NCBI GenBank assembly: GCA_036000965.1 | Contig: DASYUT010000346.1 | Span: 1-55,858 of the forward strand | DNA: 55,858 nucleotides | DNA from: Actinomycetes bacterium | Lineage (GTDB): Bacteria > Actinomycetota > CALGFH01 | Direction: 5' to 3' | Shown: positions 2,150-50,721 of the stretch, in pieces | Position numbering within the stretch: the stretch's first letter is position 1 | Layout: every line of letters starts with the position of its first letter | Notes under the pieces: generated by a model | The model's database searches: none | Told to the model about the DNA's origin: nothing | Seen by the model: only the letters and a program-made list of their open reading frames with translations | Translations under genes and position numbers: made by a program

Positions 2150-2710
2150 ATGGCCAAGCTGATCTATTCGGCGATCACGTCGCTCGACGGCTACATAGCG
2201 GACGAGGACGGCGACTTCGACTGGGCTGCGCCGGACGAGGAGGTGCACACCTTCGTCAACGACCTCGAGCGGCCGGTCGGCACCTACCTCTACGGGCGCC
2301 GGATGTACGAGGTAATGGTCGGCTGGGAGACCGCGCATACTGTCGCCGACCAGCCGCCCTTCATGCAGGACTTCGCGGAGATATGGCAGGCGGCCGACAA
2401 GATCGTGTACTCCAGGACGCTGGAGACGGTATCCAGCGCCAGGACGCGGATCGAGCGAGACTTCGACCCTGAAGCGGTCCGGCAGATGAAAGCGCAAGCG
2501 GGACGTGACATCACCGTGGGCGGTCCCGACCTCGCCGCCCAGGCGATCAAGGCCGGGTTGGTCGACGAGTTCCACCTGTTCTTCGTGCCCATCGTGGTGG
2601 GAGGCGGCAACCAGTCCCTCCCCAACAATGTCCGCCTGAAGCTCGAACTGCTGGACGAACGCCGTTTCGGCGACGGCGTGGTTCACCTCCGCTACCGCAC
2701 CAGGATGTGA
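2150..2710 (+). CDS. Dihydrofolate reductase family protein (RibD C-terminal-like), second copy
   Basis: A 186-aa protein of the same superfamily as the gene at 1203, but of a distinct subgroup. It begins 'KLIYSAITSLDGYIADEDG' with the classic SLDGYIA substrate loop (about 10-16), then 'TYLYGRRMYEVMVGWE' (about 46-61), 'DITVGGPDLAAQAIKAGLVDE' (about 122-142) and 'VPIVVGGGNQSLP' (about 148-160). The order and spacing match full-length single-domain members. ATG 2150 follows a GGGAGG sequence. It is NADPH-dependent by family expectation; the substrate is unknown. The low identity to the upstream copy suggests separate acquisition and not recent duplication. Confidence 0.9.
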   Translation: MAKLIYSAITSLDGYIADEDGDFDWAAPDEEVHTFVNDLERPVGTYLYGRRMYEVMVGWETAHTVADQPPFMQDFAEIWQAADKIVYSRTLETVSSARTRIERDFDPEAVRQMKAQAGRDITVGGPDLAAQAIKAGLVDEFHLFFVPIVVGGGNQSLPNNVRLKLELLDERRFGDGVVHLRYRTRM

Positions 2711-3045: not shown

Positions 3046-3611
3046 TCACCGGATCACACGACCGCGCAGGATGATCCGGGAAGGCGCGTCGAGTATCGCC
3101 AGGTCTCGGCGGGGATCGTTGGCATAGGCAACCACATCCGCCGGAGCGCCCTCCTCAAGCTCAGGCAGCCCGAGCCACCGCCGGGCAGCCCACGACCCGC
3201 CGCCTAGCGCCGCCTCGGCCGACAACTCGTGGTACCAGCGGGCGCGGACCTGCCCGCGGCGAGTCAGCAGCACCACCGCCTCGGCCACCCCCTCGATATC
3301 CACGCCCAACGCGGCCCAGTCAATGTCCCGCCACTGGCGCAGCTCCACCGCCAGATCGACCAGGAACACCAGCTCCCGCGGCGTGCGGTCAGGATGGCCG
3401 GTGAGCAGGTCGTAGACCGCCCGCCCGTCCGGCTGGCGGACCTTGGGATGCAGCAGCGGGCCGGGCCGACCACCAGCAGACTCCCCGGGCTGGGCAGGGT
3501 CGCGGCTAGGGGCTGGTCGACCAGCAGGCCCAGGGAGCAGTCAGCGACTGCGCCGGGGGTCAGCTCCGCGCCGACGCTGTTGGGGCCAAGCCGCCGCACC
3601 CGTGGTCGCAC
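3046..3611 (-). pseudogene. Mosaic ORF with an amidohydrolase C-terminal tail
   Basis: Read on the minus strand, the last 55 or so residues (about 3049-3215), with 'ALGGGSWAARRWLGLPELEE', 'GAPADVVAY' and a final 'RIILRGRVIR', match the C-terminal end of composite-domain amidohydrolases (imidazolonepropionase/metal-dependent hydrolase type). The preceding sequence in the same frame ('DLLTGHPDRTPRELVFLVDL' and onward) does not look like amidohydrolase and I do not recognise it. Further upstream the coding signal appears to move to another frame near 3450. No metal-binding HxH motif is present. I read this as a truncated, rearranged gene remnant. The join between the two parts is inferred. Confidence 0.4.
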
Positions 3612-3810
3612 GTCCGCCCTTCCTTCTCGGCCGGACTGCCCAAGGCCACCAGCGTATGTGCATCGCCATCAGGCGACCGCAACCAAGGGTCATGCGCCCT
3701 TACTGTGATGAGTCGAGCATGATCTGCGCTACTACTTCAGGTCTTTCCCAATGTGGGATGCGACCTGTCACGCCACCGGCACCGCCAAACCACCAGGCGA
3801 AGCGCCGAGA

Positions 3811-4330
3811 TCAGCGCTCCGCACGGTAGCGCACCAACTCCTCGGCCAGACCCTCCGCAGCCCGGAACGCCACCGATTGGCCTTTGAACAGCCCCGACCG
3901 GGCAAGCGAGCCCACCTGGACCTGCGCTGACGTGACCGTCTCGGCGGCGCCGTCCTTGCCGGGCTGCCGGTAGGCGATCACCGGTGCGTACAGCGGGAAC
4001 ACCAGCCATCCCCCGGTCTCCTCGCAGGTCACCGACTCGACATCGGCCCAACGGATCGTCTTGGTGGTCGGAAACATGCGGCAGACGATGCCCTCCGGCG
4101 TCGCGACAAGCCCCATTCGCAGCGCCACCACAGGGCCTGCGAGGCCGAAGACGACCCCCAGAAGTGGATACATGACCCACGGCGACCGCATCGAGTTCCG
4201 CGCGCCCCACGGTCAACATCGAGTACCCGATGAGCGCCCAGGGCAGCAGCAAGACGACGATGACGCCGTTCCACAGCCAGGACCGCCAGACGCGCTTGCG
4301 ACGCCGCACCTGCGAGCCGGGGGTCTCCAT
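3811..4330 (-). pseudogene. PH-domain membrane protein split by a frameshift
   Basis: The gene starts at ATG 4330 with METPGSQVRRRKR and a first membrane segment (about residues 17-38 of the first frame). That frame becomes meaningless after about 4190. A second frame opens at an overlapping ATG (4191) and continues with a second membrane segment, then a soluble domain reading 'GLVATPEGIVCRMFPTTKTI' and 'RWADVESVTCEE', typical of bacterial PH domains (two TM helices followed by a PH fold). The two pieces together give a normal-length protein of about 170 aa. Either a one-base frameshift split it, a sequencing error is present, or two coupled ORFs exist. A frameshift is most likely. Confidence 0.55.
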
Positions 4331-4474
4331 GCCCCTAGTATCAGCACCTGGCGTCACGATGGTGCGAGGATGTCCGGATCCTGCCGGAGAACTGCCGGGG
4401 TTGGTACCAAGACGACCCGTGCGCGAGACGCTCCCTGCGGGGCCGTCACCGTAACGCCCGAGATTCTGTGGGTG

Positions 4475-5017
4475 TCAACGCGCTGTTGGGGCGTCCAGGC
4501 GCCGGTTGATCTGGGCGGCAACCTCACGCGCCCGCTCCGGGGTCAGCGACGGCGGCAGGCTGCGCAGCAGGCCGGGCAGGCGGCGGGCGGGCACCACGCG
4601 CCGGCCACCGGCGGCCAGGGCCAGCAGGCCGCGGACTGGCAGGGGCAGGCCGGGCAGGGCACCGGCCAGCCAGCCCAGCGGCAAGGACGGCGGCCACGCG
4701 CAGGGGCAGGGTGCGGGCCCAGGCGGCGTGCTCGCGGTCGCGGCGGCGGCGGTACTGGGCCTCAGCGGAGGCGCCCGGGGTCCCTTCCGGCCGGCGGCGG
4801 CGCCGGGCCGGCGCGGTCCTGGGCGCGGGCGGGCTGGCGGGCGCGGGGCCACGCTGGGACGCGGCGGTCGCTGTCGGAGGGCTCGCCGTGCAGGTGGGCC
4901 AGGATCGCCGCGACGTCGGCCTGGCCGAGGGGGGTGGACCGACACCCCTGGGGTGTCGTCGTCCTCCCACGGCAGCGGGAACGCCTCCCGGTCGGGGTCG
5001 GGGTGGGGGCTGGCCAT
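4475..5017 (-). pseudogene. Frame-shifted small gene next to the relaxase
   Basis: A clear start (ATG 5017, preceded by AAGGAG at a spacing of 6) begins 'MASPHPDPDREAFPLPWEDD'. Plausible protein then seems to move between frames: 'ADVAAILAHLHGEPSDSD' in one, 'ASAEAQYRRRRDREHAAW' with a hydrophobic run in a second, and 'TPERAREVAAQINRRLDA' at the end in the original frame. The formally open 180-aa ORF is therefore mostly Pro/Arg-rich out-of-frame text in its middle. I infer a former single gene with at least two frameshifts. It lies 24 bp downstream of the relaxase remnant on the same strand, so both probably came with the same conjugative element. Function unknown. Confidence 0.4.
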
Positions 5018-5040
5018 CGGGGGCTCCTTCGGGGTAGTGG

Positions 5041-6309
5041 CTAGCCGGCGGCCCGCTCCGGACCCTGCCGGCCTGACCGCGCGTCCCGCTCGTGGGGGCG
5101 CGCCGGGCGGTGCTGCTGGTGGGTGGCCTGGTGCTCGCCGGTGGCCTGCTGCTCGCGGGTGGGCTGGTGCTGGCGGGCGCGGTCGGCGACGCGCTGCTTG
5201 TGGTGGACCCGCTCGACCGCGGCCCGGGCGCGCTGCCAGTCGGCCCGCTGCGCAGGGTCGTGGGGCTGCGGCCCAAGCGCCTGGTCGGGGTCGGTGATGC
5301 CCCAGACCGCGCGGTACTCGGTGACCGCGGCGGCGCCGTGACGCCAGGCCCGCTTGCCCCTGGTTGATGCTGGCACCGGGCCGAGCACGTCTCGCAGGTA
5401 GCCGGGGCGGTCGGCGTCGATCGCCTCGTGGGCCACGCCGGTGGCGCGCCGCTGCCACGCCAGCGCCCGGGTGACCTGCCGGTAGGCGGGCCGAGGGGGC
5501 GTTGGCGTCCAGCCAGCCGGCGCGCTGCTGCTGCTGCTGGGCGCGCAGCTCCTGCTCACGGTCCACCGCCCGGTTGGCCTGCTGCTCGGCGACCACGATG
5601 GCGCCTGCCTGGGCGGCGGTCCGCTCGTCGGCGCCGTGACCACGCCAGCGGAGCATGTTGTGGTGCTGCGGGCTGGCGGGCTGCTTGGCGCGGGCGGCGG
5701 CCAGGGCGGCCTCGGCCTGCTCCCGGCGGGCGGTCGCCCGCGCCAGCTCCCTGGCGCGGTCCCGGGGGGCCTGCCCGAGTTCGGCGCGGAGCCGGTTGCG
5801 CTCGGCACGCAGCTCCGCGGTAGAGAGCTGGAGCAGGTCGGGGGTGCTCGGCGTGTCGATCGCCAGCGTCTCCCCGCCGGCCCTGCTCAGCGCGCGGGCG
5901 AGCTGCTCGCAGCCGTCGCCCGGGTCGGTGTCGGGCAGGTCCAGCTCGGCCGCCTCCACCAGCCCCGCGTGATGGGCCTCAAGGACCGCCCCGCCGACCC
6001 GGCTGTCGCCGAGGCCGTAGAGGAGCGACACGCTCTTGGTCGGGCGTAGCACCACGTCGAACGCCGGCACTGCCCGCTTGCCGTGGGCGCGGCCCAGCAG
6101 CTCCCCGGTCTGCGGGTGGCGGCCCTCGAAGATCCGCCGGAACCCCTCCACCGACGCCTCGCCGCGCTGGCCCAGCGCGACCGCACCACCGCCATACCAC
6201 CGGCCCGGGGACTCGCCGTGGCCGACAGGTACTCCTCGTGGCTGCCGGCGATGTCGCGGACGTAGTAGTCCTCCCAGCCCGCCGAGAGCTTCGCCACGTC
6301 CGCGACCAC
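5041..6309 (-). pseudogene. MobF/TrwC-type conjugative relaxase, broken and internally deleted
   Basis: N-terminal relaxase text is spread over frames. 'VAKLSAGWEDYYVRDIAGS' begins near 6309. After a frameshift at about 6235 comes 'GHGESPGRWYGGGA', then 'RIFEGRHPQTGELLG' and 'AFDVVLRPTKSVSLLYGLGD' (TrwC N-terminal signature, including the PTKSVSLLYG block). From about 5960 it jumps directly to a helical C-terminal region and then to a third frame ending in 'RGKRAWRHGAAAVTEYRAVW', typical of actinobacterial relaxase tails. The catalytic His triad and the RecD-like helicase domain, which make intact members well over 1000 aa, are missing. It cannot function as a relaxase. It marks a former conjugative or mobilisable element. 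Confidence 0.75.
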
Positions 6310-6621
6310 CCTGCCGCTCCCTTGCTCGCCTTGCTGGGCGCGAGCGAACGCACCCCTGGTGCATTGCTCTCCTGCTTGAAAATGCAGTGTAGCAAATGAG
6401 GGGGTGAGCGGGCGGATATGCGGTGAGGTTCTGACAATGAAGTGGTGAGTTTGAGAGATGTCAAGAGTAGGAAATGGGTTTGCGGTGGGGTGAGTGAGCG
6501 AGGCTGACGGGATGAGGGTGCTCAAGATAGTGGAGGCTGCTGAGCCGTGAGCCGTCTACCTGCTGTGATGATACTCACGCTTCGCTCGGTCAGCTCCTCG
6601 AGATATGCTGTACTGGCGAGC
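6310..6621. other. Less GC-rich gene-free stretch upstream of the relaxase remnant
   Basis: This stretch is visibly less GC-rich than the rest of the window and G-rich on the plus strand in places ('gagtttgagagatg', 'gtggggtgagtgagcg'). No ORF is credible. Its different base composition and its position between the relaxase remnant and the tRNA scar suggest remaining mobile-element DNA. Confidence 0.4.
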
Positions 6622-24714: not shown

Positions 24715-24735
24715 CGTGTGTCCGCCCATGACCCC

Positions 24736-25611
24736 TCAAGAGCGCCTGTGCCATGGTCGGGTGGATCCCGCCGCTGCCACGGCCGCGCCCGCGGCCCATG
24801 CGGCTGCCTCGCAGGCGCGGAGCACGGCCACGCCCAGGGCGTGGAGCGGATCGGCGGCCAGCAGCCGGCGTTGGCGCCACATCGCGCGGGCGGTGGCGCC
24901 CGCCTGGGCCGACACCGCCCCCGGGTGGGCCCGGCGGTAGGCCGGCAGCCCCCTGCCGTAGTAGAAGCGCTTACGGACCACGCCGGGCAGGGAGAGCCGT
25001 CCCTCGTCGTGGAGGATCAGCGCGTCGGCGCTGGCCAGCCCGGCGCCGTCGGCCAGCATGCGGTTGCGCAGCTCGGCGTCTTCGGTGCCGGCCAGCCAGG
25101 TAGCGAAGCCGCCGGTCCGGCGCAGGTAGGCGGTTGCCACCAGCCGGGGCGCCTCGATCCGGGGCTCGCCCGCGTAGCAGCGTCGCTCCAGGGCGCGGCA
25201 GCGGGCCCAGAAGCCCGAGCCGGTGCTCGCCTCCGTGACGAACACGCCGGTCGCCCCGGCGTCCCGGGCGGCGGCCAGCGACCGCTCGACCACGTCGGGC
25301 GCCAGCTCCATGTCGGAGTCGATCCAGAGCACCCAGTCGCCGGCGGCCCGGGCGATGCCGGCGTTGCGCTGCGCGCTGCGCTCCGGGCCGGCCCGGAGGA
25401 CCACGTCGGCCAGGCGCGCGGCAACCGGCCAGGTCGCGTCCGAGCTGCCGTTGTCGACCACGATCAGCTGGATGTCCGGGTGGGTCTGGGCCCGCACCGC
25501 GCGCAGGCAGGCCTCGATGGTCCGCCCCGAGTCGCGGGTGGGCACCACCACCGACACCAGGGGAGCGCCGGTTCGCCCCGCGCTCCCGGGTGCGGCCGGG
25601 CCGGCGCTCAC
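24736..25611 (-). CDS. Glycosyltransferase family 2
   Basis: A 291-aa GT-A enzyme. It opens 'PLVSVVVPTRDSGRTIEACL' (about 19-38), then 'IQLIVVDNGSSDATW', 'GPERSAQRNAGIARAAGDWV' and 'LWIDSDMELAPDVV', containing the DxD-type metal motif (DSD). The region 'GFATWLAGTEDAELRNRML' carries the family's ED acceptor-activation motif. GTG 25611 overlaps the upstream stop by 4 bp (GTGA), making it the third gene of a tightly coupled operon with the AftD homologue. Acts in the cytoplasm on a nucleotide sugar; acceptor unknown. Confidence 0.87.
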   Translation of the reverse strand: MSAGPAAPGSAGRTGAPLVSVVVPTRDSGRTIEACLRAVRAQTHPDIQLIVVDNGSSDATWPVAARLADVVLRAGPERSAQRNAGIARAAGDWVLWIDSDMELAPDVVERSLAAARDAGATGVFVTEASTGSGFWARCRALERRCYAGEPRIEAPRLVATAYLRRTGGFATWLAGTEDAELRNRMLADGAGLASADALILHDEGRLSLPGVVRKRFYYGRGLPAYRRAHPGAVSAQAGATARAMWRQRRLLAADPLHALGVAVLRACEAAAWAAGAAVAAAGSTRPWHRRS

Positions 25612-26054
25612 CGGTCGGCTCCGCGCCCTGGGCGCTCGACGTAGGGGTCCAGCTCGGGCGCTGGCCTGCGCACGGCCAGGCTGCGGCGCTCGCCCGTGGC
25701 GGTCTCGCCCGTGGCGGTCTCGCCCGGCCGGTCCGGGAGCCGCTCGGGCGGCCGGACGTCGCGCAGGATCCCGAGGACGAGCAGGGCCAGGGCTGCCCCG
25801 GCCAGGCCGTGGGCGACCGGGTTGCCGCTGGCGAAGTCCGGGCTGACCGTGGCCGGCGTGGGCAGGCCGCGGGCGAGCACGGCCAGCGGGACCAGCCCGA
25901 ACAGCACCAGCGAGAGGCGCAGGAGCTGGCGCGGGGACGGCGCCCTGAACCAGTCCCAGGCCGCGATGGCCACGCCGGCCAGCAGCCCGGCCCAGCCGCC
26001 CAGCAGCCAGAGCACCGCGACCAGGGGCAGCGCCGGCCCGAGCCGCCCGCTCAT
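25608..26054 (-). CDS. Small multi-pass membrane protein in the AftD operon
   Basis: A 148-aa protein. It has four hydrophobic segments at about 5-20, 20-36, 45-65 and 82-100, with 'AAWDWFRAPSPRQLLRLSLV' between. A hydrophilic C-terminal tail of about 45 residues contains a GETATGETATGE tandem encoded by a 15-bp duplication. ATG 26054 overlaps the AftD stop (ATGA) and its own stop overlaps the GT2 start (GTGA). I do not recognise the family. Position between two glycosyltransferases suggests an accessory or scaffold role in the same pathway. Confidence 0.7.
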   Translation of the reverse strand: MSGRLGPALPLVAVLWLLGGWAGLLAGVAIAAWDWFRAPSPRQLLRLSLVLFGLVPLAVLARGLPTPATVSPDFASGNPVAHGLAGAALALLVLGILRDVRPPERLPDRPGETATGETATGERRSLAVRRPAPELDPYVERPGRGADR

Positions 26055-29000
26055 GCGCCCCCACCCTCGTTGCCGTCCGGCAGGCCAGGCGTGCCTCCCG
26101 GCAGGGCCAGGCGTGCCTCCCGGGAGCGCGCCTCCGGTCCCCCTCCCTCCTTCGGCACGCCGAGGCGCGCCTCCGGTTCCCCTCCCCCTCTCGGCACGCG
26201 GACGCGTCTCGGCACGCGGACGCGCGCCTCCGGTTCCCGGCCGCGCCGGACAGCGCCCACGCCGGCGAGCAGGACCAGCACGAGGGCGAGCCCGGCCAGG
26301 GAGGCAACCAGCGAGAGCCGGGCCCAGCGCTGCGGGGCGAAGTCGATCGCGACCAGGTGGGCCCGGGTGTCCGGGATGCGCCAGCCGGCCGAGTACCCGT
26401 CGACCACCGCCGGCGGCCCCAGCGGCAGCCCGTCGATCGTGGCGCGCCAGCGGGGATCCCAGCCCTGCCCGAGCACCAGGTAGTAAGGGCCGTCCGCAGC
26501 CTCGGTGGTCAGCGTGGTCCGGGTTGGTGTGGCCGAGGTGACGGTGATCCGGGGCGGGGCCGGAGCCGCCCCTTGGGCTCTGCGCGCCTTGCCGTCGCCG
26601 TCGCCGGTGGAGGAGAGACCGAGCAGGTCGATCAGCCACCCGGGCTCGGCCCTGAGCCGGTGCTCCCCGGCCCGGAGGCGCAGCGGCGGTTCCCCCGGGC
26701 ACGGGCCCACCGCCAGGGCGGCCCCGTTCACGAGCTGCTCGAAGGTGCCCTTCACGGCGAGGCGGAGCGGGGCGCCGTCGACCTTGGCCACTTGCGCGCA
26801 GCCCTTGAGCGGCCCAGGCCTGGCGGGCCGGAGCTCCACCCCCGGGGCCTCGATCTCGCTGATTCGCACCCCGCCGCCGAGGCCGGCGACCTCGATGATG
26901 GTGAGCCGGAGCCGGCTCGCCCGGCGCTTGGGGAAGTCGATCCGCGCCGCCCCGGAGTGCAGGCGGACCCGGCGCGGCTCCCCGTCGTCGATCGACAGCT
27001 CGGCCTGGACGGCCACGTCGGCGCCCTGCCGGTCCTTGAGCGACGCTGGCACGTCCTGCCTGACGACGACGTGGTCGAGGTCGCGCTCGGGGAACGAGAC
27101 CTCGATCCGCTCCCCAGGCCCGCGACCGGCCGGGACCCAGGCGGTGTCCCGGTTGCCGTCGAACGCGGCTGAGGCGCGCACCTCCAGCGAGTCGAACGCG
27201 AGCGACGACGAGCGCGCCACCACCTCATTGGGCAGGCCCGCGAGCTGGTCGACGACCGGCTCGGGCAGGCCGGGGCCGGCCGTCACCCGGCCGGCGACGC
27301 CGAACGAGCGCTCGTCGGGCAGCCAGAAGCGGCGGTCGACCACCCGCTCCTCGTCGTCGCCGGCCTGCCCCGGGTCCCCGGCCGCCCTGGTCATGACGAC
27401 GTCGAGAGGGGTGGCGGCGAGCCGCTTGCCCGCGCCCTTGTCGAGCGAGCCGGCCAGCTCGCGGAAACGCTCGGGCATGCGGACGCCCTCGGCGACCCGT
27501 ACCCCGGGGATGTCGATCTCGTAGAAGCCGACCGGGTTCAGGCCGGCCCCGCCCCGCACCCCGGTGATCTCGACGGTGGCGCCCCAGGTCTCGGTCTCCG
27601 GCACGGGCACGACGACCTCGGGCTGGGCCGGGACCTGGGCGTCCTGGGTGCGGCCGTCGAGCTTGATCCGCACGCTCGAGACCTGGGCCGGGCTGCCCTG
27701 CAGGGGGCGGAGGGTGAGGCGGGAGACCTTCACCCGCCGGCCGAACTCGATGGTGATCGACTGGCCCACGGCGGTCCCGTAGGCACCGGTGACCCAGGCC
27801 GTCCGGGGGTCGCCGTCGAACGCGAGCGCGGGCTTGCCCCAGGGGGCCAGCCCGAAGGGGATGCCCGAGCTGGTCGCGGTCACCGCGCGGGCGCCTTCGA
27901 GCTCGGCCACGCTCTGGTCGGCGGGGTCGTCGAACAGGGTGAGGGAGGCGCCCGGCCCGCCGCCCGAGGTGGGTGAGGCGACCGGCTGGTCGGCCCGGAG
28001 CGTCGGGGAGTACGAGGTGCCGGCCCGGTGGGTGTCCCAGGCCCGGCGCCGGTTCGAGTCGGTGAGCACGATGCGGGCGCCGTCGTCCAGGGCCAGCGCG
28101 GTCTCGTCGAGGCTGGCCGACCCGAGCAGCCGGAACGGCGGCTGGCCGCGCAGGAGCCCCAGGCGCCCGAGCGACGGCAGGGCGAAGCTGTCCCCGTCGA
28201 CCAGCACGACGCCCTGGGCCGGCTCGGTCCGCAGCACGGGCCGGGCACGAGCCACCGACCAGCGCTCGAGGGGGGTGAGCGCGGCGTCACCCTCCGCGGC
28301 GCCCGCCGGTGCGACGGTGTGCTCGCCGGGCCGGCCGTAGGAGGCCTCCCGGCGCAGGTCCGGGTCGCGGCGGAGGGCGGCGGCCAGCGCCGACGGCGGC
28401 GCGCCCCCCTCGGCCTCCCAGACCCGGTCGTAGCGGGCGAGCACCTCGCTGGCGCCCAGGTAGCGAGCCATCGCGCTCACCGTCCCGTCGGGGGCGCCGG
28501 TGGCCAGGGCCACGTCGAGGGCGGCGAGGAAGTTGGCCTGCTCGCGGGAGCCGTTGGGGACCGTGGAGCGCAGCACCGACGACCTGGCCAGCAGCGAGCC
28601 GTCGAGGTCGTCGGGACCGCGCATCCCCCAGCGGTAGTCCGCCTGGACCTGGCCCGGGAGCATCAGCACCCGGGTCGACGCCGGCCCGCGGTCGAGGTCG
28701 CTGGCCGCCTGCCGCCAGTACCCGGGGATCCGGTAGCCGGCCAGGTTGAGCCCGCCGGTCCAGGCGGGCAGGACGGCCACGGCCAGGACGACCGCCATGG
28801 CCACCACCGCCCCGGCCATGCGCTCGTACGGCGCCCGCCCGTCGTGGAGCGCCCGCCCGTCGTGGAGCGCCCGCCGCCCGCCCCCGCCCGTCCTCCTGGT
28901 CGAGAGCCAGACGGCCAGCTCGGCGGCGCCGAGCGCGATCAGCAGGGTCAGGGCGAGCGCGACCAGGGCGCCGGCCTTGTTGGTGGTCCTGAACGCGATC

Positions 29001-30211
29001 GCCCCTGGCAGCCGCTCGAACGCGGCCTCGAGCAGCCGCCCGAACGGCGAGGGTGCGCCCGGCGGGAACAGCCCGACCATCACCGGCGCGGCCACCGCGA
29101 GCAGGTAGGCCGACAGCGCCCTGGCCCTGGCCCGCGAGGCCAGGGCGGCCGCGGCCGCGGCGGCCGGGACCGCGAAGGAGGCGAGCACCACCAGCGGGTT
29201 GGTCAGGTAGGTGACCAGGCCGGGCAGGAACGGCTGGTCGCCCGTGCGGCCGTACAGGGTCCACAGGCCGAGCAGGCGGAGCGTCTCGGCCCAGGACGAC
29301 GCTCCCGCCACGTCGCGGGGGGTCTCAGTGGTGGCGGCGATGGCCGCGCCGCTGGCGCTGGCCAGCGCCGCCGGCACCAGCCAGTACAGCGACACGAGCA
29401 GCGTGAGGGAGAGGCAGCGGCCGGTGGCCGCGCCGAGGTCGCGCCATGCCGTGCCAAGGGCGTGCCGCTCGTACGCGAGGTAGCAGGGCACGGCCAGCAG
29501 CATGAACAACGGGACCACGCCGGCGTTCATGCCTCCGCAGAGGGCGAAGGCGAGCGCGAAGGCGGCCGGCGCGCGCCACGACCGGGGCCGGCGCACGCTG
29601 CGGGCGAGCGCCAGCAGCAGCCAGGGCAGGAACGCGTAGGGCACCAGGATCGGGTTGGTCGCCCCGGCCACGACCACGTAGGGGTTGGCGACGTACACCA
29701 CGGCGGCGGTCACCCGCCCGGCCACGTTCGAGCGACCGGCGCTCGCCCTACCCGTGTCGGCACCGGCGCTCGCCCCACCTGTGTCGGCACCGTCGCGCGC
29801 GACCTCGTGGAACAGCCGGACCGCGCCCCACCCGGCGGCGAGCAGCAGCAGCGCCCGCCACAGGCGCACGGCGAGCCAGGGCTCGGCGCCCAGGGCGCGC
29901 AGGCCGGCCAGGGCGAGGGCGGCCGGGGCGAGGCCGGTGTCGAAGTTGGGCTGGCCGAGGTATGGGTCGGGCGACCAGGTCGACAGGGCCGTACCCAGGG
30001 CCCGCGCCGGCGCCAGGTACAGCTCCGGCTTGGTGTCGGGGGTGAACAAGCCCCGGTCGGTGAGGAAGAGGACGGCGAGCGCGAGCGCGGCGAAGGCCAG
30101 GTAGGCGACCGGCTCGGTGAGCTGGTCGGGAAGCCGCCTCCGGAGCCACCCCGGGCGGCGGTCCGGCTTGGTCGGCCGGATCGGCCGGTCGAGCCGCCGC
30201 AGCTCGCTCAC
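26051..30211 (-). CDS. AftD-type alpha-(1->3)-arabinofuranosyltransferase homologue (DUF3367)
   Basis: A 1386-aa polytopic protein, close in length to mycobacterial AftD. After a basic N-terminus comes the hallmark luminal loop 'DRGLFTPDTKPELYLAP', then 'WSPDPYLGQPNFDTG' (about 45-85), the GT-C catalytic region of this family. Membrane helices fill about 30-510. The long extracytoplasmic part holds two discoidin-like carbohydrate-binding modules, near 815 ('IEFGRRVKVSRLTLRPL') and 1040 ('SFPERDLDHVVVRQD'). A final helix (about 1297-1320) precedes a repeat-rich cytoplasmic tail. In mycobacteria AftD adds arabinofuranose from decaprenyl-phospho-arabinose to arabinan chains; homologues occur in actinobacteria without mycolic acids. 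GTG 30211 follows a purine-rich box. First of three overlapping genes. In-frame tandem repeats occur at three loops. Confidence 0.88.
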   Translation of the reverse strand: MSELRRLDRPIRPTKPDRRPGWLRRRLPDQLTEPVAYLAFAALALAVLFLTDRGLFTPDTKPELYLAPARALGTALSTWSPDPYLGQPNFDTGLAPAALALAGLRALGAEPWLAVRLWRALLLLAAGWGAVRLFHEVARDGADTGGASAGADTGRASAGRSNVAGRVTAAVVYVANPYVVVAGATNPILVPYAFLPWLLLALARSVRRPRSWRAPAAFALAFALCGGMNAGVVPLFMLLAVPCYLAYERHALGTAWRDLGAATGRCLSLTLLVSLYWLVPAALASASGAAIAATTETPRDVAGASSWAETLRLLGLWTLYGRTGDQPFLPGLVTYLTNPLVVLASFAVPAAAAAAALASRARARALSAYLLAVAAPVMVGLFPPGAPSPFGRLLEAAFERLPGAIAFRTTNKAGALVALALTLLIALGAAELAVWLSTRRTGGGGRRALHDGRALHDGRAPYERMAGAVVAMAVVLAVAVLPAWTGGLNLAGYRIPGYWRQAASDLDRGPASTRVLMLPGQVQADYRWGMRGPDDLDGSLLARSSVLRSTVPNGSREQANFLAALDVALATGAPDGTVSAMARYLGASEVLARYDRVWEAEGGAPPSALAAALRRDPDLRREASYGRPGEHTVAPAGAAEGDAALTPLERWSVARARPVLRTEPAQGVVLVDGDSFALPSLGRLGLLRGQPPFRLLGSASLDETALALDDGARIVLTDSNRRRAWDTHRAGTSYSPTLRADQPVASPTSGGGPGASLTLFDDPADQSVAELEGARAVTATSSGIPFGLAPWGKPALAFDGDPRTAWVTGAYGTAVGQSITIEFGRRVKVSRLTLRPLQGSPAQVSSVRIKLDGRTQDAQVPAQPEVVVPVPETETWGATVEITGVRGGAGLNPVGFYEIDIPGVRVAEGVRMPERFRELAGSLDKGAGKRLAATPLDVVMTRAAGDPGQAGDDEERVVDRRFWLPDERSFGVAGRVTAGPGLPEPVVDQLAGLPNEVVARSSSLAFDSLEVRASAAFDGNRDTAWVPAGRGPGERIEVSFPERDLDHVVVRQDVPASLKDRQGADVAVQAELSIDDGEPRRVRLHSGAARIDFPKRRASRLRLTIIEVAGLGGGVRISEIEAPGVELRPARPGPLKGCAQVAKVDGAPLRLAVKGTFEQLVNGAALAVGPCPGEPPLRLRAGEHRLRAEPGWLIDLLGLSSTGDGDGKARRAQGAAPAPPRITVTSATPTRTTLTTEAADGPYYLVLGQGWDPRWRATIDGLPLGPPAVVDGYSAGWRIPDTRAHLVAIDFAPQRWARLSLVASLAGLALVLVLLAGVGAVRRGREPEARVRVPRRVRVPRGGGEPEARLGVPKEGGGPEARSREARLALPGGTPGLPDGNEGGGA

Positions 30212-30248: not shown

Positions 30249-31823
30249 TCACCGGCCCGGACCCGGACGGGGCCGGCGCTCGACGAGCCAGCCGGAGACG
30301 AGCACGGTCCCGGCCCCTCCAAGCGCCACCCCCACGATCTGGAGCACCGAACCGTGCAGGGCCACGGAGCCGAGGCCGATCTCGGCCACCACCGCGGCCA
30401 GCAGGACCCGGTTCAGGCGGGGGTCGGCCGTGGCGATCCCGGAGAACAGCACGAGCTGGACCAGGGCGAGGCAGGTGCCGAGGGCGGCGAACAACGGCAG
30501 CGCCGGGCCCACGGCGAGGTAGGCCTGCCCGAACGGGAGCGTCGCGGCCAGCTGCGGTGCGACCGCCGCGCCGGCCACCAGCAGCGCGCCGAACCCGGCC
30601 ATGGCGGCAGCGGCCCGGCCGAGCAGCCGCCTGCGGTCGCCGGTGGTGCACAGCCGGGGGAAGACGATGGTGACCACGAACTGCGGCGCCCAGTAGGCGA
30701 TCTTGGCCACCACCGCACCGGCCGCGTACAGCCCCGACTCGTCCCCGCCCAGGTAGTGCCTGGCCAGCAGCACGTCCACGTTGGCGAGCAGCAGCAGGCC
30801 GAGGATGGCCATGGCCGCCCCCACTACCTCGCGCCCGATGCGGAGCGGGAGCAGGCGACCGAGGCCGGGCATGGTGCGCGCGCGACCAAAGCCGGGCGTG
30901 GTGCGCACGCGACCCAGGGCCGTCTCCACCCCGGCAAGCGTCGGGCGCACGAAGGCCAGCGCCAGGAGCATTGCCAGCAGCGAGCCGGCCGCCGCGCCGG
31001 CGAGCGCACCGCTCACCCCGCCGCCCGCCCGCACCAGGCCGATCCCGGCGGCCAGTTTGCCGGCGGCCGCGGCGAGCAGGACGGCGGCGAGCGCGGCGAA
31101 GCGCTCCCGACCCTGCAGCATGCCCTGGACGGCCGCGAGCACCGGGAGCGGGGCCACGGCGACCGCGAGCCACAGGATCGGCGCGACCGAGCCCAGGCGG
31201 AGATAGCCGCTGAGCCAGGGCCCGGCCGCGACCGTGACCAGCCCGAGCCCGACCCCCACGGCCAGGACGGTGGTCAGCGTCCTGGACCACAGGTCGGCGA
31301 CGGCTCGGTCCCCGGCCTCATGCGTTTCGGACGGCGGGGGCTTGCGCGTCTCAGGGGACCGGGTCTTGGGCGCCTGAGGCATCCGGGTCTTGGGCGCCTC
31401 GGGCGAGGGGGCCTCGCGCGCTTCAGGCGAGGTGGCGCGGAGCGCGGTGTGGCGGGCCACGACCGCCTGCAGGGCGTAGCCGGGGACGGTGCCGATCACC
31501 ACCAGCGCCAGCAGCGCGCCGAGGGCACCGTAGCCGGACGGGCCCAGCATGCGGGCCATGACCAGGTTGTACGTGTAGTTCATCCCGTTGGCGACCGCCA
31601 TGGCAGGCGCCACCACGAGCGCGGCCCGCACGAGCGAGCGCGCGAGGCCCCCTCGCCCGAGGCGCCCAAGACCCGGATGCCTCAGGCGCCCAAGACCCGG
31701 TCCCCTGAGACGCGCAAGCCCCCGCCGTCCGAAACGCATGAGGCCGAGCCGCCCAGGCGCGCGACTGCTGCCGACGGGCAGGCCGGTCCCGGTCGCCGGC
31801 AGCTCCCGGTCGCCCGAGGTCAA
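30249..31823 (-). CDS. Polysaccharide flippase (MVF/PST-like) with an inverted-repeat-bounded segment
   Basis: A 524-aa membrane protein with about 12-13 helices. 'YNLVMARMLGPSGYGALGAL', 'LARHYLGGDESGLYAAGAVV' and 'FVVTIVFPRLCTTGDRRRLL' are typical of polysaccharide-export flippases (Wzx/MurJ superfamily). TTG 31823 overlaps the methyltransferase stop (TTGA), matching the coupling style here, although ATG 31739 is an alternative. The first 60 residues are Arg/Gly/Leu-rich repeats. An unusual hydrophilic insert ('EAPKTRMPQAPKTRSPETRK') lies after the second helix. Both stretches are encoded by the two arms of a perfect 110-bp inverted repeat. Presumably moves the lipid-linked glycan made by the neighbouring transferases. 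Confidence 0.8.
   Translation of the reverse strand: MTSGDRELPATGTGLPVGSSRAPGRLGLMRFGRRGLARLRGPGLGRLRHPGLGRLGRGGLARSLVRAALVVAPAMAVANGMNYTYNLVMARMLGPSGYGALGALLALVVIGTVPGYALQAVVARHTALRATSPEAREAPSPEAPKTRMPQAPKTRSPETRKPPPSETHEAGDRAVADLWSRTLTTVLAVGVGLGLVTVAAGPWLSGYLRLGSVAPILWLAVAVAPLPVLAAVQGMLQGRERFAALAAVLLAAAAGKLAAGIGLVRAGGGVSGALAGAAAGSLLAMLLALAFVRPTLAGVETALGRVRTTPGFGRARTMPGLGRLLPLRIGREVVGAAMAILGLLLLANVDVLLARHYLGGDESGLYAAGAVVAKIAYWAPQFVVTIVFPRLCTTGDRRRLLGRAAAAMAGFGALLVAGAAVAPQLAATLPFGQAYLAVGPALPLFAALGTCLALVQLVLFSGIATADPRLNRVLLAAVVAEIGLGSVALHGSVLQIVGVALGGAGTVLVSGWLVERRPRPGPGR
31313..31422. repeat. Left arm of a 110-bp perfect inverted repeat
   Basis: The sequence is the exact reverse complement of 31637-31746. 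On the coding (minus) strand it encodes the hydrophilic insert rich in Pro, Lys, Thr and Glu after the second helix of the flippase. Internally it contains two copies of GGGTCTTGGGCGCCT. Confidence 0.95.
31637..31746. repeat. Right arm of a 110-bp perfect inverted repeat
   Basis: The sequence is the exact reverse complement of 31313-31422, with 214 bp between the arms. On the coding strand it encodes the Arg/Gly/Leu-rich N-terminal repeat of the flippase (LARLRGPGLGRLRHPGLG). The flanks diverge at once on both sides. Confidence 0.95.
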
Positions 31824-32710
31824 CGACCCGGTTCCTCCCCGGCCCCGGACGCGCCCAGCGGGGCGCCGCCGACCCGCCGCGACGACATCGGCACGACCTT
31901 CAGCACGGCCGAGCAGAGCCTCGGGTGCCGCGGCAGCGTCCGCCAGGCGACCCGGACCGCGGGCCGGTAGGCCAGGTCGTAGGCGAGCAGCCGCCAGGCC
32001 ACGTCGAAGCTCCGAGGGCGGACCAGCCCGATGGCCTCCGGCCGGGCGGGGGGACGCTCGAACGCATACAGCTTGACCCCGTTCCACCAGACGGGGTCCT
32101 CCTCGTGCTCGGCGGCCAGATCGAACAGCAGCCGGTAGCCGGGGTGGGCGCGGAGGTAGCGGTCGGTGGCCCGGGTCACGATCGGCCACGACGCGTCGTC
32201 GACCACCACCAGCGCCCGGTCCGCCAGCCAGGGCTCGGCAACCCCCAGCGCCAGGTAGTGGGGCAGGCGGCCGTGGGCCCCGTCGTAGAAGTAGACCCCG
32301 ACCGGCTCGCGAAGGATGCCCGGCCGCCGCAGCAGCTCGAAGCAGTCACCCTCGAGCAGCTCCAGCTGGTCCAGGTCGACCCAGCGGCGCAGGTTGCCCA
32401 GCAGCTCCTCGCGCAGCGCCCGGCCGTCGAGGTTGAACTCGAGGAAGTTCTCCATCGCGTAGAACCGCCGGCCCGGGTTGTCGAGCATGGCGCCGACCAG
32501 CGACAGGCCCTTGAACGACCCCACCTCGAGGTATGCCTCGCCATCGCCGAGATGGGCGGCAGCCAGGTTGAGCAGGGCGAGCTTGCTCTCGGTGGCCATC
32601 CCGGGCACGTCGTCGACGACCGCGCTGAAGCGGCGGTCGACCGGCTGCCCGGCCAGCGGGTCGCCCGCGAACAGGTCAGAGAGCTTGGCAGAGAAGGCGT
32701 CGAGGTCCAT
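31820..32710 (-). CDS. Class I SAM-dependent methyltransferase
   Basis: A 296-aa protein. The SAM-binding motif I is in 'GEAYLEVGSFKGLSLVGAML' (about 57-76), motif II-like 'RRFYAMENFLEF' (about 81-92) follows, then 'DQLELLEGDCFELL' and 'VGVYFYDGAHGRLPHYLALG' (about 138-157), the YDGAH segment typical of the Methyltransf_24 group. These often methylate sugars or lipids. Its stop overlaps the flippase TTG, so it is probably co-transcribed with flippase and AftD and may cap or decorate the glycan. ATG 32710 begins the conserved domain. Divergent from the DUF3068 gene. Confidence 0.8.
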   Translation of the reverse strand: MDLDAFSAKLSDLFAGDPLAGQPVDRRFSAVVDDVPGMATESKLALLNLAAAHLGDGEAYLEVGSFKGLSLVGAMLDNPGRRFYAMENFLEFNLDGRALREELLGNLRRWVDLDQLELLEGDCFELLRRPGILREPVGVYFYDGAHGRLPHYLALGVAEPWLADRALVVVDDASWPIVTRATDRYLRAHPGYRLLFDLAAEHEEDPVWWNGVKLYAFERPPARPEAIGLVRPRSFDVAWRLLAYDLAYRPAVRVAWRTLPRHPRLCSAVLKVVPMSSRRVGGAPLGASGAGEEPGR

Positions 32711-50599: not shown

Positions 50600-50721
50600 G
50601 GGCTCTTTCCGTAACGAGCGGGTTAGGATGGCATGGCCTCGCTTGCTTCGGCGGGCACGAGCCTTGGGCGCTTCAGGTGAGCGCGAGCCCCGCGGCGGGT
50701 GGCGAGGGCACGGAGGTGACG

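Follow-up and report, generated by a model that had tools for sequence, protein, structure and literature searches.

A perfect inverted repeat within an actinomycete flippase gene as the probable by-product of a dispersed 24-bp protein-invading repeat

Background

The window analysed here, the whole 55,858-nt stretch of contig DASYUT010000346.1 from the Actinomycetes bacterium assembly GCA_036000965.1, contains a flippase gene with a long inverted repeat inside its coding sequence, and the question that this raises is how such a structure arose and whether it serves as a switch. The original prediction, made from the sequence alone, offered either an invertible segment controlling glycan export or a recent inverted duplication, and pointed to a library or assembly artefact as a third explanation. 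We compared the repeat with the remainder of the genome and with related genomes in order to weigh these readings.

Results and discussion

Geometry of the inverted repeat and its host gene

The arms are 100 % reverse complementary over 110 nt with 214 nt between them (Table 1), precisely as had been predicted, and the match breaks off abruptly at either end. From base composition approximately 10^-48 such pairs would be expected by chance in the window. The claim that both arms fall within one flippase ORF also held, a single minus-strand frame remaining open across them, and the intervening segment does code for the first membrane helices.

Family profile and fold both place the encoded protein in the MOP superfamily as a Wzx-like flippase: the Pfam profile Polysacc_synt_3 scored above its cut-off in a scan of the window proteins, and the AlphaFold model (pLDDT 80) has WzxE as its top solved match, with a TM-score of up to 0.76 on target length. 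Judged by its sequence context, the start codon is probably the TTG at 31823, which overlaps the TGA stop of the upstream methyltransferase gene (TTGA) and has GGAGG upstream; an alternative ATG lies at 31739, within the right arm. The right arm forms an N-terminal extension of the flippase, disordered in the model with residues 1-55 below a pLDDT of 50, and the left arm a loop after TM2, where the insert encoded by the array is modelled as coil at a pLDDT of about 60. A further tandem repeat (27 bp x 2.5, positions 30851-30918) occupies another of the flippase loops, and both same-family relatives carry unrelated repeat-rich inserts at that loop.

Table 1 Features of the inverted repeat, its host gene and the 24-bp family (positions in the window)
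Feature	Position	Strand	Remarks
AftD-type arabinofuranosyltransferase gene	26051-30211	-	Downstream of flippase
Flippase CDS, MOP superfamily, Wzx-like	30249-31823	-	Pfam Polysacc_synt_3; AlphaFold model best matches WzxE structures
Left arm	31313-31422	+	Runs from 1 base ahead of unit 1 into unit 5 (to base 13); proposed as source
Five-unit array	31314-31337, 31338-31361, 31362-31385, 31386-31409, 31410-31433	+	5 x 24 = 120 bp; holds most of left arm
Spacer	31423-31636	-	214 bp, mostly TM1-TM2 coding; alignable in same-family orthologues
Right arm	31637-31746	-	Perfect inverted copy, proposed to be recent and ending within unit 5; the N-terminal extension encoded here is basic (GLMRFGRRGLARLRGPGLGRL...)
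Methyltransferase-like gene	31820-32710	-	Directly upstream of flippase; Methyltransf_24 just below curated cut-off
Second, weaker site of 24-bp family	50635-50683	+	Two units spaced 25 bp; not called coding in any frame

The arms consist of a dispersed 24-bp unit

Tandem Repeats Finder identified a period of 24 in each arm, making each a tandem array, and the arms resolve into a 24-bp unit, GGCCTCGCGCGCTTCAGGCGAGCG, which is dispersed across the genome (the genome search initially gave many partial matches). Allowing up to two mismatches, the unit has 80 matches in this genome compared with 0 for a reversed-pattern control, 0 in either of two same-family genomes (G001 and G002) and at most one per genome in 58 other relatives. 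With up to one mismatch, 40 matches were present in this genome and none in 396 other genomes of the phylum. The 64 array sites examined, an incomplete census of the family, hold 1-7 units each (mostly 1-5) in both orientations, and 56 of 76 unit spacings are exactly 24 bp. GGCC is found in 14 of the 64 right flanks against a background of 1.9 %, and two consensus units form a weak hairpin (z = -2.2). A viral and a plasmid origin of the unit were considered and rejected, with no exact match in viral contigs and no match in plasmids. As to mobilisation by a RAYT transposase, the genome contains a single match to the Y1-type profile Y1_Tnp, interrupted by an internal stop (contig C31, positions 2212-2487, minus strand).

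A codon-usage heuristic called 38 of the 64 examined sites coding. Thirty of these 38 are read in two small or hydrophilic frames (SPEAREA and ASRASGE) and none in the stop-containing frame, from which we infer selection for harmless disordered peptides. The five-unit array, read on the gene strand, gives a hydrophilic SPEAREA-type insert at flippase residues 131-170 or thereabouts.

Alignment with orthologues from G001 and G002, the two related genomes that made up this comparison, identified insertions of whole units in several genes, named here from NCBIfam. PurL and a homocitrate/isopropylmalate-type synthase each carry a 16-aa in-frame insert (2 x 24 bp, 48 bp) and IleRS one of 32 aa (4 x 24 bp, 96 bp), and in PurL the DNA alignment shows a clean 48-bp insertion ahead of GGCC relative to G001 (TGCC in G002). 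The gap at the flippase loop is 40 aa against G001 (5 x 24 bp, 120 bp) and 41 aa against G002, where the alignment is looser; the Pro/Lys/Thr stretch, predicted to be a lineage-specific insert, is indeed missing from both orthologues. Acyl-CoA dehydrogenase and KdpB also carry 24-bp units, the inserts backed by orthologues being those of PurL, the synthase, IleRS and the flippase. A scan of genome contigs for named relatives yielded just two Blastococcus genes, at 34-41 % identity. The absence of the family from same-family relatives together with these whole-unit inserts supports a putative lineage-specific element residing in many genes.

An invertible switch is improbable

A programmed invertible segment, with recombination between the arms alternately giving a functional and a non-functional flippase, would resemble the invertible switches of bacterial surface loci in that inverted repeats flank a segment of a glycan-export gene. 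The arms are long and perfect, they enclose the first two membrane helices, and inversion of 31423-31636 in silico leaves the ORF open. However, the inverted product carries a hydrophilic stretch in place of the predicted TM1-2, in line with the expectation that inversion would replace the N-terminal helices, and the invertase whose presence nearby had been suggested as a check did not emerge: a Pfam search for a site-specific recombinase or invertase in 23 window proteins, with small ORFs partly covered, found none. These two observations, which also set the locus apart from the known switches, make programmed switching highly improbable in our view. The repeat to which the arms belong moreover recurs at many unrelated sites, and the arms are absent from same-family orthologues. 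The proposed on/off or antigenic switching of glycan export is thus not supported, the arms being explained by the dispersed repeat, although such arms could permit rare inversion or conversion via general recombination.

Origin and direction of the inverted copy

The two arms are not equivalent. At the left locus the whole of unit 5 is present, matching the consensus at 22/24 bases. The right arm extends no further than base 13 of that unit, and because the match stops inside a unit that is completed only on the left, the most natural reading is that the right arm is the copy. Translation follows a favoured reading frame of the 24-bp family in the left arm and a rare frame in the right. Between units of the flippase array 6-12 of 24 sites vary, but no difference separates the arms along their 110 bp, and copying or conversion would therefore be recent relative to the array. 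The recent inverted duplication put forward in the original prediction is accordingly well supported, but its direction appears to be the opposite of that implied, the left arm with its Pro/Lys/Thr stretch being the older array and the right arm resembling the copy.

It is also conceivable that the family entered the gene twice, through separate insertions of arrays facing opposite ways, and that template switching or gene conversion later made the arms identical, given that both orientations of the family are found throughout the genome and that template switching has been reported to homogenise inverted arms (PMC8604942). We regard this as unlikely. Sequence flanking the right arm matches the unit no better than chance on the outer side (p = 0.16) and weakly on the inner side (p = 0.03), and the arms agree through four divergent unit variants whose order is also shared. 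By eye a remnant unit seemed plausible upstream of the right arm, but it scored at chance and was rejected.

We therefore favour, with a probability of roughly 0.7 based on sequence comparison, a reading in which no switch is involved and a dispersed protein-invading repeat gave rise to the inverted repeat as a by-product, one of its arrays having recently been copied in reverse within the flippase gene. A lineage-specific 24-bp element would have become set up in many genes as in-frame whole-unit arrays, including the five-unit array in the flippase loop after TM2. The asymmetry and identity of the arms suggest that a recent local event then deposited a reversed copy of 110 bp of this array in the gene's 5′ end, the most likely route being a template switch by the polymerase or fold-back synthesis across the spacer. 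As 110 is not a multiple of 3, a plain 110-bp insertion would shift the frame, and the event would have to have replaced some target bases or brought another start into use. Both added peptides appear to be tolerated, and the flippase probably still functions since both are predicted to be disordered and to lie outside the membrane core.

Comparison with known repeats

Protein-invading repeats are best known from Rickettsia. Rickettsia palindromic elements (RPE) occur in frame inside unrelated genes, metabolic ones included, where they add peptide segments (PMC10969869), and we consider them the nearest known kind to the 24-bp family, which is likewise dispersed in frame within unrelated protein genes. 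RPEs are however about 150 bp in length, whereas the unit described here is 24 bp, is arranged in tandem with 1-7 units to an array and belongs to an unrelated high-GC lineage. A strong palindromic hairpin is a further mark of RPEs, and two consensus units of the family gave a weak one. REP/REPIN sequences, with their RAYT transposase, differ in being extragenic, in contrast to the majority coding call among the sites examined here. A literature search of limited coverage for the 24-bp element returned only RPE, PARCEL and unrelated repeats and no paper describing the unit.

Coding palindromes, which are long and perfect inverted repeats within working protein genes, occur in the mitochondria of Nematomorpha, where template switching or conversion has been suggested for their origin or upkeep (PMC6649704). 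The flippase repeat shares this architecture, but both arms of the nematomorph palindromes hold conserved protein sequence whereas those of the flippase encode lineage-specific additions predicted to be disordered. In template-switch mutations one arm of an inverted repeat serves as template for the other and renders the two identical (PMC8604942); the cases described there lie between short inverted repeats, in contrast to 110 identical bp across a 214-bp spacer in the flippase.

The 24-bp protein-invading family is a more interesting result than the inverted repeat. We raise tentatively, as a possibility rather than an expectation, that it is a previously undescribed and still active element that inserts and expands in whole 8-codon units within essential genes, a protein-remodelling selfish repeat with its own mobilisation mechanism and a preference for GGCC targets. 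A 24-bp whole-codon repeat in the housekeeping genes of a high-GC lineage so distant from Rickettsia would indicate that the phenomenon arises independently. With exact whole-unit inserts relative to same-family orthologues, direct tests become possible of where units insert, which targets they prefer and how their frame is selected, and the flippase case suggests a route by which a dispersed repeat may give rise to long perfect inverted repeats within genes.

Other repeats in the genome

A second perfect inverted repeat was identified on contig C263 (1588-1705 and 2292-2409; 118 bp, or 133 bp at 99 %, with a 586-bp spacer), both arms falling in a single ORF of 530 aa that has a YukD domain. 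The repeat does not contain the 24-bp unit, and the protein has no match in the two same-family relatives; we take it as a precedent for the flippase case. Short-range inverted pairs (≥ 40 bp, ≥ 75 %) numbered 7 in 835 kb of this genome, among them the flippase (110 bp, 100 %) and C263 (133 bp, 99 %) repeats, against 1 in 421 kb of the relatives, and direct non-overlapping pairs 45 against 7, an excess that is no more than suggestive, since the 835-kb sample consists of long contigs, several of them picked non-randomly for holding hits, and the contigs of the relatives are shorter.

The repeat on C263, an unrelated contig, also bears on the suspicion that the flippase structure is an assembly or library artefact, as might arise in a draft of 358 contigs. 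An artefact would require two separate junctions with continuous coding flanks, and the left array, being a whole-unit insertion that belongs to a family found across the genome, has independent support. Neither arm shows a break in its flanks and a comparable repeat exists in a second gene, which makes a simple chimera unlikely; we assign to artefacts of any kind the slightest probability of the explanations considered.

Contig C303 contains nested inverted repeats (3105-3445 with 4087-4427, 341 bp, 84 %; 3574-3686 with 3840-3952, 113 bp, 75 %). Other tandem units of the window were rejected as dispersed families, being mostly low-complexity codon patterns. An ORF at 4475-6364 (minus strand) of the window has a partial match to TrwC relaxase and is a possible mobile-element remnant. 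A second dispersed family, TGGCACAGGCGCTCTTGGGG, has 62 matches in this genome compared with 7 and 9 in the two relatives, several copies forming series at intervals of about 33 or 68-70 bp; its copy in the window (24734-24753, minus strand) falls at the junction of two genes.
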